Shown piece by piece: positions 4,550 through 63,890 of a stretch of DNA of 64,000 bases. This stretch comes from Halorarius halobius. Its GTDB lineage: Archaea > Halobacteriota > Halobacteria > Halobacteriales > Haloarculaceae. The position numbers and the translations under genes are program-made. The stretch is from positions 2,005,227 to 2,069,226 of the forward strand of contig NZ_CP101161.1 in NCBI RefSeq assembly GCF_024298865.1, given 5' to 3'. Position 1 is the stretch's first letter. Each line of letters starts with the position of its first letter. The notes beneath the pieces were generated by a model that made no database searches, had not been told where the DNA came from, and saw only the letters and a program-made list of their open reading frames with translations.

Positions 4550-6004
4550 GTCGCGCTCCAGTTGGGCATCGTCGGCGCGTACCTCGTGGCCGCGCTCGCG
4601 GTGGGCCTCGTGGCCTACCGGGTCGCCGAGCGAACCGCCGAGGACTACTATCTGGCCGGCCGGACGCTCGGCACTGTCGTCCTCCTGTTCACGACCTTCG
4701 CGACCCTCCTTTCGGCGTACACGTTCTTCGGCGGCCCCGACACCGCCTACCGACTGGGCCCCGAGTGGATACTGGTGATGGGGCTGATGGACGGCGTGCT
4801 GTTCGCGTTGCTGTGGTACGTCATCGGCTACAAGCAGTGGCTCGTCGGGAAGGCCCGGGGGTACGTCACGCTCGGCGAGATGCTGGGCGACCGGTTCGGC
4901 TCCATCGGCCTGCGCGTGCTCGTCGCCGTCGTCTCGCTGTTCTGGCTGTTCCCGTACGTGATGCTCCAGCAGAAGGGCGCGGGGCTGGCACTCGTGGGAC
5001 TCACGGACGGCGCGGTACCGCTGTGGGTCGGCGCCGGCGGCATCACGCTGTTCATGATAGCCTACGTCGTCGTCAGCGGGATGCGCGGCGTCGCGTGGAC
5101 CGACACCCTCCAGGGCGTGTTCATGCTCGCGCTCGTCTGGGCGGCGTTCGCGTGGATAGTCTCCGCGGTCGGCGGCGTCGACGCGGCGACGGCGGCGCTC
5201 GCTGAATCCAACCCCGAGTATCTCGCGCTGGGCGGTGGCGCCTACTCGATGCAGTTCGTTCTCGGCACCGCCGTCTACATCGCGTTCGGCGTCACGATGT
5301 TCCCGCAGATAAATCAGCGGTTCTTCGCCGCCGAGTCGAAGCAGGTGCTCAAGCGCACGTTCTCGCTGTGGCCCGTGCTCGTGCTCCTCCTGTTCGTTCC
5401 TGCCTTCCTGCTCGGGGCGTGGGCACAGGGGCTCGGCGTCGCTGTCCCGGAGGGGTCGAGCGTCCTCCCGGTGCTCCTGCGGCAGTTCACGCCGACGTGG
5501 TTCGCGGCGCTGGTCATCGCGGGCGCGCTCGCGGCGATGATGTCCTCGTCGGACTCGATGCTACTCTCCGGGTCGTCGTACCTCACCCGTGACCTCTACC
5601 GGCCGCTCGTCTCCGATGCCAGCCGCGAGGACATCGTCGCCCGTGTCGGGGTCGCGGCGTTCGCCACCCTCTCGTTCGTCGCGTCGCTGTTCGCCGAGCG
5701 GACGCTGGTCCAGATAGGCAACACCGCGTTCGGCGGGTTCGCGCAACTGGCGCTCCCGGTGATGGTCGCGCTCTACTGGCCTCGGACGACGAAGTGGGGG
5801 ATGTACGCGGGCATCGGGGTGACGCAGTTGTTCTACCTCGCCACCGTGTTCCTCGGGCAGGTCCCGGGCACGTTCTACGGGTGGCCCGCCGCCGTCGTTG
5901 GGATGGTGCTGGGTCTCCTGCTCACGGTCGGGGTCAGCGCCGTCACCTCGCCGTCGTTCGGCGAGGACAGTTCGGTCTACTTCGAGGGCATCGAGGCCGA
6001 CTGA
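4544..6004 (+). CDS. Sodium:solute symporter (SSS) family transporter
   Basis: A 486-residue polytopic membrane protein of the LeuT-fold SSS family, with about 13 helices. The N terminus AYLVAALAVGLVAYR followed by DYYLAGRTLG, the TTFATLLSAYTFFGGP segment of helix 2, and AAMMSSSDSMLLSGSSYLTRDLYR (Na2-site region of helix 8/9) are diagnostic. The substrate is unknown; the DUF3311 partner is frequent with monocarboxylate- or pantothenate-type members. The GTG at 4544 is preferred because the upstream in-frame extension translates the low-complexity spacer into Arg-rich residues. Confidence 0.9.
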   Translation: MSVALQLGIVGAYLVAALAVGLVAYRVAERTAEDYYLAGRTLGTVVLLFTTFATLLSAYTFFGGPDTAYRLGPEWILVMGLMDGVLFALLWYVIGYKQWLVGKARGYVTLGEMLGDRFGSIGLRVLVAVVSLFWLFPYVMLQQKGAGLALVGLTDGAVPLWVGAGGITLFMIAYVVVSGMRGVAWTDTLQGVFMLALVWAAFAWIVSAVGGVDAATAALAESNPEYLALGGGAYSMQFVLGTAVYIAFGVTMFPQINQRFFAAESKQVLKRTFSLWPVLVLLLFVPAFLLGAWAQGLGVAVPEGSSVLPVLLRQFTPTWFAALVIAGALAAMMSSSDSMLLSGSSYLTRDLYRPLVSDASREDIVARVGVAAFATLSFVASLFAERTLVQIGNTAFGGFAQLALPVMVALYWPRTTKWGMYAGIGVTQLFYLATVFLGQVPGTFYGWPAAVVGMVLGLLLTVGVSAVTSPSFGEDSSVYFEGIEAD

Positions 6005-6097
6005 CGCCCTCCGTTCCGGGGGACGTGACACCGAATCACTCAAGCGACGGTTTGTGCCTCCGCTATCTATTAGCGCCGGTCTCCTGTTGTTCGATTC

Positions 6098-7018
6098 GTG
6101 AAAGCGATACGAACTGACCAACTGACCAAGACGTTCGGCGACGTGACCGCCGTCCGGGACCTCGACCTCGTCGTCGAGTCGGGGGAGGCGTTCGGCTTCC
6201 TGGGCCCCAACGGCGCGGGGAAGTCGACCACCATCGACCTCCTGCTGGACTTTACGCGGCCGACGGCGGGCGACGTCGAGGTGCTGGGCCACGACCCACG
6301 GGCTGACACCCGGGCCGTTCGCCGCAAGGTCGGCATCCTCCCGGAGGGGTACGACCTCTACGACCGCCTCTCGGCCCGCCGGCACGTCGCGTTCGTCGCC
6401 GACATCGAAGGGAGCGACGACGACCCCGACGCCCTGCTGGAGCGGGTGGGTCTGGCCGACGACGCCGACCGTTCGGTCGGCGGGTTCTCGACGGGGATGC
6501 GCCAGCGCCTCGCGCTGGCGATGGCGCTCGCCGGGGACCCGGAGTTGCTCGTCCTCGACGAACCGTCGAGCGGCCTCGACCCCAACGGCGTCCAGTTGCT
6601 CCGCCGCATCATCAACGAGGAGACGCGACGCGGTACGACCGTGTTCTTCTCCAGTCACGTCCTCGACCAGGTGGAGGCGGTCTGTGACCGCGTCGGCATC
6701 CTGAACCGGGGGGGTCTCGTCGCCGTCGACACCGTCGAGGGCCTGCGAGAGGCGACGGGTGCATCGACGACACTCGTCCTCGACGTCGACTCGGCGCCCG
6801 ACACCGACGAACTCCGTGCGCTCGGCGGCGTCGAACGGGTGACGGCGACGGACGATACGCTCCGGGTCGGCTGTTCGGCCCCGGAGATGAAGGCGCAGGT
6901 CATCTCCACCGTCGAGCAGAGGGGCGCTTCGGTCACCGACATCGACGTCGAGGAGACGGACCTCGAGGACCTGTTCGTGGCGTACACCGACGGCGACGCT
7001 CCGGGGGTGGACGCGTGA
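6098..7018 (+). CDS. ABC transporter ATP-binding protein (exporter type)
   Basis: A 306-residue ATPase with Walker A GPNGAGKS (about 36-43), a divergent signature FSTGMRQR (130-137), Walker B LLVLDEP (150-156) and an H-loop SSH. The C-terminal domain after residue 215 resembles that of CcmA/NatA-type exporter ATPases. The GTG at 6098 follows a ctatctattag box about 26-36 bases upstream. The permease gene overlaps by four bases, so the pair forms one exporter. The substrate is not evident. Confidence 0.9.
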   Translation: MKAIRTDQLTKTFGDVTAVRDLDLVVESGEAFGFLGPNGAGKSTTIDLLLDFTRPTAGDVEVLGHDPRADTRAVRRKVGILPEGYDLYDRLSARRHVAFVADIEGSDDDPDALLERVGLADDADRSVGGFSTGMRQRLALAMALAGDPELLVLDEPSSGLDPNGVQLLRRIINEETRRGTTVFFSSHVLDQVEAVCDRVGILNRGGLVAVDTVEGLREATGASTTLVLDVDSAPDTDELRALGGVERVTATDDTLRVGCSAPEMKAQVISTVEQRGASVTDIDVEETDLEDLFVAYTDGDAPGVDA

Positions 7019-7863
7019 CCTCGCCCGTCGTCGCGCTGGCGCGCAAGGACCTCGCGGACGCCGCCCGTTCGAAACTGATGTGGGGACTGACGGCGGTCCT
7101 GCTCGTCGTGACGGTGCCGAGTTTCGCCGGTACGGTCGGGTCGTCGTTCATCTCCGGGCCGGCCGACGCCGTCGAGTGGCTCCCGGGCGTGTTCCAGAAC
7201 TTCGTCGCGCCGGTGGCGATGATCGCCGCCTACCGGTCGGTCGTCGGCGAGCGCGAGTCGGGGAGCATCCGCACCCTGTTCGGTCACCCGGTCACGCGCG
7301 GTGAGTTCATCGCCGGCAAACTGCTCGGCCGGGTCGCCCTCGTCGGTGTCGTCCTCGCGGTGGGGATGCTGGCGCTCGGTGGCGTCGTCGTCGCCACCTA
7401 CGGGACGCTCCCGGTCGCGCTGTTCGTCGCGGTCACCGCCTACGTCGTCGCCTACGGCGCCGTCTGGACCGCCATCACCGTCGGCGTCTCGGCGGCCGTC
7501 TCCTCGCGGTTACAGGCCATCGCCGTGATGCTCGGCCTGTTCCTCTTCTTCGGCCCGTTCACGCTCTGGCAGACGTTCGGCCTGGGGGCCGCCGCGCTGG
7601 TGGCCACCGGGCGTCCATCGACCGCCGCCATCGACCCGATAGACCCGGCGACGTGGCCCGACTGGTATCTGTACGCCCAGCGGCTCAACCCGATGCGGAA
7701 CTTCGAGATGACCCGCGAGTTCGCCGCCAGCCTCGGGGACCCCACTATCGGCTACTTCGGCGCCGTCGAGGTCCAGGTGTTCGGCCTCGCGGCGCTGGTC
7801 GCGTGGGCGGCCGTCCCGCTCGCGGCCGGCTACTGGCGGTTCGAGCGCGCGGACCTCGGGTGA
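7015..7863 (+). CDS. ABC-2 type transporter permease
   Basis: A 282-residue membrane protein with about six helices. It shows the ABC-2/NosY-like plan: a cytoplasmic N terminus with ALARKDLADAARSK, a first helix, an external loop, then VVGERESGSIRTLFGHPVTRGEFIAGKLLGR, the cytoplasmic coupling element typical of ABC-2 permeases. It overlaps the ATPase stop by four bases. Together they make a two-gene exporter whose substrate cannot be read from the sequence. Confidence 0.88.
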   Translation: MTSPVVALARKDLADAARSKLMWGLTAVLLVVTVPSFAGTVGSSFISGPADAVEWLPGVFQNFVAPVAMIAAYRSVVGERESGSIRTLFGHPVTRGEFIAGKLLGRVALVGVVLAVGMLALGGVVVATYGTLPVALFVAVTAYVVAYGAVWTAITVGVSAAVSSRLQAIAVMLGLFLFFGPFTLWQTFGLGAAALVATGRPSTAAIDPIDPATWPDWYLYAQRLNPMRNFEMTREFAASLGDPTIGYFGAVEVQVFGLAALVAWAAVPLAAGYWRFERADLG

Positions 7864-62635: not shown

Positions 62636-62938
62636 ATGACTCACTCCTACGACGACGCCGCCTACTACCTCGACCGGGCGGGCGGCCGGCTGGCCGCTGG
62701 CGACACGACGGCGGCCGTCGAGTCGGTCGCGGCCGCCGCCGCGGCGGTTCGGGGAGCCCCGCCCCGCGGACTGGCCCGGGAGGCGAACGGCTACGCACGT
62801 GGGGCCGTGGCCGCGATGCGCCAGCGGCCGCCCGACGTGGAGCGGGCGGAGACGTATCTCGACGTCTGCGCCCGGACGGTCGAGGAGATGGCGGGCTACG
62901 AGCGCGCCGAGCTGTTCGGCGCCCGGCCGGCTCAGTAG
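62636..62938 (+). CDS. Small Ala-rich protein of unknown function
   Basis: 100 residues, predicted all-helical: SYDDAAYYLDRAGGRLAAGDTTAAVESVAAAAAAV and the Arg-rich YARGAVAAMRQRPPDVERAETYLDVCARTVEEM. The TPR-like helix pairs are only suggestive. A gttgaaatac box is 21-30 bases upstream. It overlaps the 3' end of the TFB gene by seven bases. No family recognised. Confidence 0.65.
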   Translation: MTHSYDDAAYYLDRAGGRLAAGDTTAAVESVAAAAAAVRGAPPRGLAREANGYARGAVAAMRQRPPDVERAETYLDVCARTVEEMAGYERAELFGARPAQ

Positions 62939-63870
62939 ATTATCTCGTCGTCGAGCGCGTCCATCTGCTCCTGGTAGCGGTTGCGGATGGTGACGACCGT
63001 CACGTCGGCCACCTCGCTCACCTCGCTCTGGGTGAGCTTCGGGCCGACGATACGCGACGCCGAGTAGATGGCCGCCGCGGCGTAGCCGGACGGCGACTTG
63101 CCCGAGTGGAGCCCCTGTTCGGTCGTCTCCGCGACGACCTCGACCGCCTTCTGCTGTATCTCGTCGCTCACGCTCAACTCGGAGGCGAGCTGTGGGATGT
63201 ACTGGCGGGGGTCGACGGGCTCCAGCGCCAGGTCGAGTTCCTGTGAGATGTAGCGGTACGTCCGCCCGATTTCGCGGCGGTCGACGCGCGAGACCTGCGT
63301 GAGGTCGTCCAGCGAGCGGGGGATACCCTCCTGGCGGCAGGCGGCGTGTAGCGACGCGGAGGCGACGCCCTCGATGGAGCGGCCGCGAATCAGGTCCGCA
63401 TCGAGGGCGCGCCGGTAGATGACCGATGCGACCTCCCGCACCGAGCGCGGCACGCCCATCGCGGAGGCCATGCGGTCGACCTCCGAGAGCGCGAACTGGA
63501 GGTTGCGCTCGCCGCTCTCCTGGGTGCGGATGCGCTCCTGCCACGTCCGGAGGCGGCGCATCCGGTTGCGCTTGTCCGTCGACAGCGACCGGCCCGACGC
63601 GTCCTGGTCCTTCCAGTCGATGTCGGTGGTGAGGCCCTTGTCGTGCATCGCCTGCGTCGTGGGCGCGCCGACGCGGGACTTCTCCTGTTTCTCCGTGTGG
63701 TTGAACGCGCGCCACTCCGGCCCGCGGTCGATGTTCTCCTCCTCGACGATGACGCCCGTCTCCTCGTCGATGAGTTCGCCGTTGTCGGTGCGAACGAGGT
63801 TCTCGGGGTCGATGTCGTCGGCTGTTTCGTCTACCGTACCGTCGTCCTGACGGCGTGAGAGGCGTGTCAT
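62932..63870 (-). CDS. tfb: Transcription initiation factor B paralogue lacking zinc-ribbon cysteines
   Basis: 312 residues. The B-finger and core are intact: ENIDRGPEWRAFNHTEKQEKSRVGAPTTQAMHDKGL, then two cyclin folds (NLQFALSEVDRMASAMGVPRSVREVA and VVAETTEQGLHSGKSPSGYAAAAIYSASR). In the N-terminal 50 residues, where TFBs have CPxC...CxxC, the sequence is DENLVRTDNGELIDEETGVIVEE: all four Cys are missing. The core could still bind TBP, DNA and RNA polymerase, but ribbon docking should be altered. Haloarchaea carry many TFB paralogues for gene-set control. Start ATG 63870, TATA gatacac on the minus strand. Confidence 0.93.
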   Translation of the reverse strand: MTRLSRRQDDGTVDETADDIDPENLVRTDNGELIDEETGVIVEEENIDRGPEWRAFNHTEKQEKSRVGAPTTQAMHDKGLTTDIDWKDQDASGRSLSTDKRNRMRRLRTWQERIRTQESGERNLQFALSEVDRMASAMGVPRSVREVASVIYRRALDADLIRGRSIEGVASASLHAACRQEGIPRSLDDLTQVSRVDRREIGRTYRYISQELDLALEPVDPRQYIPQLASELSVSDEIQQKAVEVVAETTEQGLHSGKSPSGYAAAAIYSASRIVGPKLTQSEVSEVADVTVVTIRNRYQEQMDALDDEIIY

Positions 63871-63890
63871 GTGTTCCGGTCGAGGGACTG

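Follow-up and report, generated by a model that had tools for sequence, protein, structure and literature searches.

A conserved haloarchaeal TFB paralogue in which all four zinc ligands of the B-ribbon are replaced

Within the 64,000-nucleotide stretch of Halorarius halobius DNA that we analysed (the window), one gene encodes a paralogue of TFB, the archaeal TFIIB, whose N-terminal B-ribbon contains no cysteine. The loss is conserved across two genera, the former ligand positions carry specific replacements, the remainder of the protein is intact, and Cys-less TFBs recur elsewhere among the haloarchaea. We think it rather probable that this is a functional TFB whose B-ribbon would keep its ribbon fold and its docking on RNA polymerase without zinc; it is the zinc-free fold, the polymerase docking and the transcription activity that we infer.

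The open reading frame begins with an ATG at 63870 on the minus strand, encodes 312 residues, and scores 393 bits against the NCBIfam model NF001658 (transcription initiation factor IIB; cut-off 384). Its ribbon reads IDPENLVRTDNGELIDEETGVIVEEENIDRGPEWRAF, with zero cysteines, and that of L002, a canonical four-cysteine paralogue of the same genome used as the alignment reference, reads CPECESDSLVKTGDGELMCDDCG. When the two are aligned on the canonical ligand spacing, C-x2-C-x14-C-x2-C, the ligand positions are occupied by A17, I20, D35 and T38, which bears out the claim of the initial annotation that all four zinc-ribbon cysteines are replaced; the sole cysteine in the whole protein, C178, lies in a cyclin repeat. 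The four-cysteine zinc ribbon expected of an archaeal TFB is therefore absent. Over the expected residues the Pfam Zn_Ribbon_TF model gives 19.1 bits against a cut-off of 29 (L002 reaches 51.1 bits), so that a relic ribbon is detectable but sub-threshold, and homology of the ribbon type, metal aside, extends to the Pyrococcus TFB ribbon 1pft (E 2.7e-5). The same annotation described the B-finger and both cyclin folds as well preserved, and this stands: the B-reader/linker motif GPEWR(A)F is present as DRGPEWRAF, and PF00382 (TFIIB repeats) matches two stretches with 146.5 bits, leaving linker and both cyclin repeats intact. Of the dozen or so TFBs that we read in the H. halobius genome, this one alone is Cys-less, the other full-length copies keeping their cysteines; its identity to the organism's own four-cysteine paralogues is 68-69%.

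Table 1. Features of the Cys-less TFB gene and its upstream region, in window coordinates
Feature	Position	Strand	Basis
Cys-less TFB paralogue, TfbC/G-like clade	62932..63870	-	312 aa; ORF and translation, NCBIfam NF001658, tree
Putative B-ribbon, all four zinc ligands replaced (residues 17-54)	63709..63822	-	Sub-threshold Pfam match, 1pft alignment, low-confidence AlphaFold2 model
Cys1 position, Ala17	63820..63822	-	Alignment to canonical spacing
Cys2 position, Ile20	63811..63813	-	V/L/I/F in 37/37 Cys-less C/G-type TFBs
Cys3 position, Asp35	63766..63768	-	His 28/37, Asp 9/37
Cys4 position, Thr38	63757..63759	-	Thr 35/37, Ser 2/37; Thr 6/6 in B/D/F type
Linker with invariant GPEWR and B-reader/B-linker region (residues 49-117)	63520..63726	-	Six-orthologue alignment
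Two cyclin repeats (residues 118-306)	62953..63519	-	PF00382, two stretches; matched to Pyrococcus 1d3u_B by sequence and, as top hit, by fold
Upstream element CTCGACCG	63877..63884	-	14 to 7 bases before ATG; identical, with same spacing, in seven orthologues

Among 116 genomes searched in the family, close relatives (78-88% identity) occur in Halorarius and Halosegnis, all of them Cys-less, and the chromosome of Halorarius litoreus BND22 also encodes a Cys-less TFB; no such close relative was found in one Halosegnis genome (G058, 90% complete). The next-best matches, at about 70%, are mostly canonical paralogues. Because every orthologue found in the two genera is Cys-less, the loss defines a stable clade, and none of them has the zinc ribbon whose conservation in close orthologues would have marked a local change in H. 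halobius. A local mutation or sequencing error is ruled out on the same grounds. Cysteines hidden upstream of a misplaced start are likewise ruled out, as the upstream reading is unconserved and the orthologues all share the start MTR[LI]S, aligned with that of the H. halobius protein. Among five orthologues the ribbon core (28 residues) is 75-89% identical and the remainder of the protein 81-90%, with identity falling to 35-85% in the N-terminal tail just ahead of the ribbon, and within the ribbon pN is 0.05-0.11 against a pS of 0.22-0.58. Since the ribbon is conserved like the cyclin part and pN lies well below pS, the Cys-less ribbon is maintained by selection.

The genomic setting is conserved as well. 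In both genera secY and trkA flank the gene, as read from the translations on either side. The closest Cys-less TFBs outside Halorarius and Halosegnis (Halobonum and the genera g50 and g41) occupy a different location, lying in three genomes close to a Pus10-like gene, and no zinc genes were recognised in either neighbourhood. Upstream of the start codon the element CTCGACCG is conserved across the two genera (including the genes L027-L032) inside otherwise unconserved DNA, and CTCGACCG-N6-ATG has a single match in the H. halobius genome; from this pattern it is possibly an operator or promoter element. Downstream, a small ORF beginning MTHSYDDAAYYLDRAGG (62636-62938, plus strand) converges on the Cys-less tfb and overlaps its 3' end by 7 bases, and a similar ORF is found at the same place in H. 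litoreus (L059). Elsewhere in H. litoreus, a TFB-like frame at G008 C1:916006-916908 is interrupted by a single TAA stop and is possibly a tfb pseudogene. In Halobacteriales archaeon QS_9_67_17 (L058, about 5190-7842), repeats translating as QPHKGPSGT lie downstream of the Cys-less tfb and are probably a CRISPR array. A viral origin of the gene is ruled out, viral contigs and phages giving no close relative (best identity 26%), and plasmids yielded no orthologue, just relatives at about 60-71% identity. The Halorubrum tailed viruses OP630574-OP630576 encode a distant TFB of 26% identity, which two of these three records label as hypothetical.

We read the ribbons of 170 usable TFBs drawn from the H. 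halobius genome, 22 relatives and the matches to a DNA pattern described below. Four cysteines are present in 122 of these ribbons, five or six in 6 and zero in 42 (one more was recovered by hand), and none has one to three; because the Cys-less set was enriched through the pattern search, its share among the 170 is no frequency, yet the empty range from one to three still carries information. The replacements are equally regular. Among 37 Cys-less ribbons of the C/G type, Pro, Leu or Ala predominate at the Cys1 position; the Cys2 position is V, L, I or F in every case, with Asp next; the Cys3 position is His in 28 and Asp in nine, with Glu next in all; and the Cys4 position is Thr in 35 and Ser in two, with Gly next in all, such that the second CxxC-G knuckle becomes [H/D]-E-[E/P]-T-G. 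Three columns that are variable in four-cysteine TFBs are fixed or nearly so in the Cys-less C/G type, namely those of R27 (Arg in 35/37), T28 (Thr in 37/37) and E36 (invariant), and GPEWR is invariant in every Cys-less TFB read. Six ribbons of the B/D/F type read YDE[QR]HGEW[VI][DN]xETGE, which is another solution, with the T-G turn common to both types. The replacements look like packing and turn substitutions and would not compose a new four-ligand site.

How common such proteins are is not visible from the H. halobius sequence alone, from which the initial annotation had been correct about what is present. Our DNA pattern required a TFB motif downstream of the ribbon and allowed no Cys codon at either of the last two ligand positions. 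It matched 135 of the 392 Halobacteria genomes sampled, with zero matches to a reversed control pattern, and since it requires GPEW or GPDW a divergent TFB could escape it. One family (f4) accounts for 124 of the 135 genomes, or about nine in ten of its genomes by our count, and four-cysteine TFBs are kept as well in the eight f4 genomes that we read in greater depth. In a phylum-wide sample of 295 genomes there were 17 matches, all in Halobacteria, and zero among roughly 240 members of the phylum outside that class. A TFB gene from one f4 genus (g40) shares 86% identity with a plasmid of Haloferax alexandrinus, so that this genus is very probably Haloferax, and f4 would very probably include it. 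Conservation of zinc-less copies in about a third of the haloarchaea sampled suggests that the finger probably folds zinc-free, and is thus adapted rather than broken.

To follow the losses we built trees restricted to the linker and cyclin part, which kept the ribbon itself from driving the grouping. Cys-less TFBs fall in two deep clades separated at 100/100, one TfbC/G-like and one TfbB/D/F-like, names that we assigned by resemblance in a tree without a Halobacterium reference sequence. The H. halobius protein groups with four-cysteine C/G-like TFBs and not with the B/D/F-like ones (split 100/100). A single origin of all Cys-less TFBs is thus unsupported, the B/D/F-like members lying outside the C/G clade at 100/100, and the two clades imply at least two losses of the cysteines. 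Within the C/G clade the tree needs several changes, but a single Cys-less origin is not rejected by the AU test (p 0.0975). One further protein, L071 (G053 C1:2354885-2355757), combines a Cys-less ribbon with a linker and cyclin part that groups with the canonical L002 at 100/99. As its ribbon is similar to other Cys-less ribbons, exchange of ribbons between paralogues is possible, and L071 may represent either such a swap or a separate loss.

An AlphaFold2 model of the H. halobius protein, built from six sequences and of low confidence (pTM 0.45; pLDDT about 66 in the ribbon region), places only short strands in the ribbon, at residues 25-27, 33-35 and 41-42; its top Foldseek matches are TFB/TFIIB structures (1d3u, 7nvu). 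The model agrees with a residual ribbon, short of proof. In the mechanism that we propose, zinc-free turns would take the place of both zinc knuckles in the B-ribbon, with an aliphatic residue substituting for Cys2 and [H/D]-E-[E/P]-T-G for the second knuckle, in an acidic domain that would be fit for molar KCl. The zinc-free ribbon would dock on RNA polymerase, after which the B-reader/linker would work normally, and the cyclin repeats would bind TBP and BRE. Conservation of the ribbon would be expected too had it gained another partner, which counts against zinc-free docking.

The initial annotation had suggested altered recruitment or competition; in such a case the protein would bind TBP and BRE, recruit polymerase poorly or by another contact, and repress or retune a set of promoters. 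In its favour, specialisation is established among haloarchaeal TFB paralogues (PMC4230888), the Sulfolobus paralogue TFB3 is known to be unable to substitute for TFB (PMC7289017), and H. halobius also keeps about a dozen four-cysteine TFBs. Against such a regulator stands the strong purifying selection on the ribbon and GPEWR, and it would be odd for a dominant-negative factor to recur in both clades and across the majority of one family's genomes. Given that the ribbon is selected like the cyclin folds, that GPEWR is invariant and that the change recurs in two clades, we consider this role unlikely, and less likely than zinc-independent docking to account for the protein.

It is about as improbable that the ribbon binds metal weakly through Asp, His, Glu and Thr side chains, as in Haloferax TFE-alpha. 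The His or Asp at the Cys3 position of 37/37 C/G-type proteins would suit this idea, and a single-cysteine TFE-alpha retains a low zinc affinity (PMC5861453). That affinity relied largely on the last cysteine, however, and the H. halobius ribbon has none; with nothing but aliphatic residues or Phe at the Cys2 position, and with Pro, Leu or Ala predominating at Cys1, no four-ligand site is obvious either. Slightly less likely still is the idea prompted by the coexistence of Cys-less and four-cysteine paralogues, namely that haloarchaea might hold parallel zinc-dependent and zinc-independent TFB sets, the latter sustaining initiation under zinc scarcity or thiol oxidation. Decay of the ribbon through relaxed selection, to which its score below the Pfam cut-off might point, is essentially excluded by a frame open in all orthologues under strong purifying selection, the all-or-none cysteine pattern with its fixed replacements, and the conserved secY/trkA placement in both genera.

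In the textbook view, recruitment of RNA polymerase falls to the zinc ribbon of TFB/TFIIB. A Cys-less ribbon that occurs in nature, recurs and is conserved would, if it docks, show zinc to be dispensable for this step and add to the reports of lost metal centres in halophile TFE. Such proteins very probably occur in Haloferax, a genetically tractable genus. Cys-less TFBs also affect annotation, since Pfam misses the ribbon, and bear on how regulation by TFB paralogues in haloarchaea is read. We found no description of them in a literature search that left most subscription papers beyond reach, and their undescribed status is provisional; the main text of a phylogeny of haloarchaeal TFB paralogues makes no mention of zinc (PMC4230888).

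Compared with known systems, the H. halobius protein shares its B-reader/linker and both cyclin repeats with haloarchaeal TfbC/G-type TFB, from which it differs in lacking the four ribbon cysteines and in carrying [H/D]-E-[E/P]-T-G instead of CxxC-G. The Pyrococcus ribbon 1pft aligns with residues 25-57, from the ribbon's second half through the GPEWRAF linker, but binds zinc and has cysteines within the aligned stretch. Sulfolobus TFB3, also a non-canonical archaeal TFB paralogue, is the reverse case, as it retains the zinc ribbon without other parts. In bacteria, zinc-free (C-minus) ribosomal protein paralogues are likewise kept alongside Cys-containing copies, and a zinc-sparing TFB set, if true, would be the basal-transcription counterpart of these C-plus/C-minus pairs; the likeness is an analogy only, between unrelated proteins. 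A general purge of cysteines is ruled out, TFS ribbons keeping all four in eight genomes. Haloarchaeal proteomes trend to low cysteine content (PMC5861453). Halorarius, Halosegnis and g50 (L227, L224 and L226; genomes G000, G034 and G167) carry Asp in place of the second cysteine of TFE-alpha, by sequence an intermediate state between the four-cysteine form and the one-cysteine form of Haloferax. A further likeness is to this last factor and its partner: Haloferax volcanii TFE-alpha has S/A/C/T at its ribbon ligand positions and folds still, binding zinc weakly and largely through its one remaining cysteine, and TFE-beta has lost its FeS cluster (PMC5861453). TFE-alpha is a different protein that keeps one cysteine and weak zinc binding; the TFE-alpha of a Haloferax-like genome also has a single cysteine (FYLSEPAG...CPETG). 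These too are basal initiation factors of halophiles that have lost metal ligands, and in TFE-alpha, as in the H. halobius TFB, the fourth cysteine has become Thr (CPETG).
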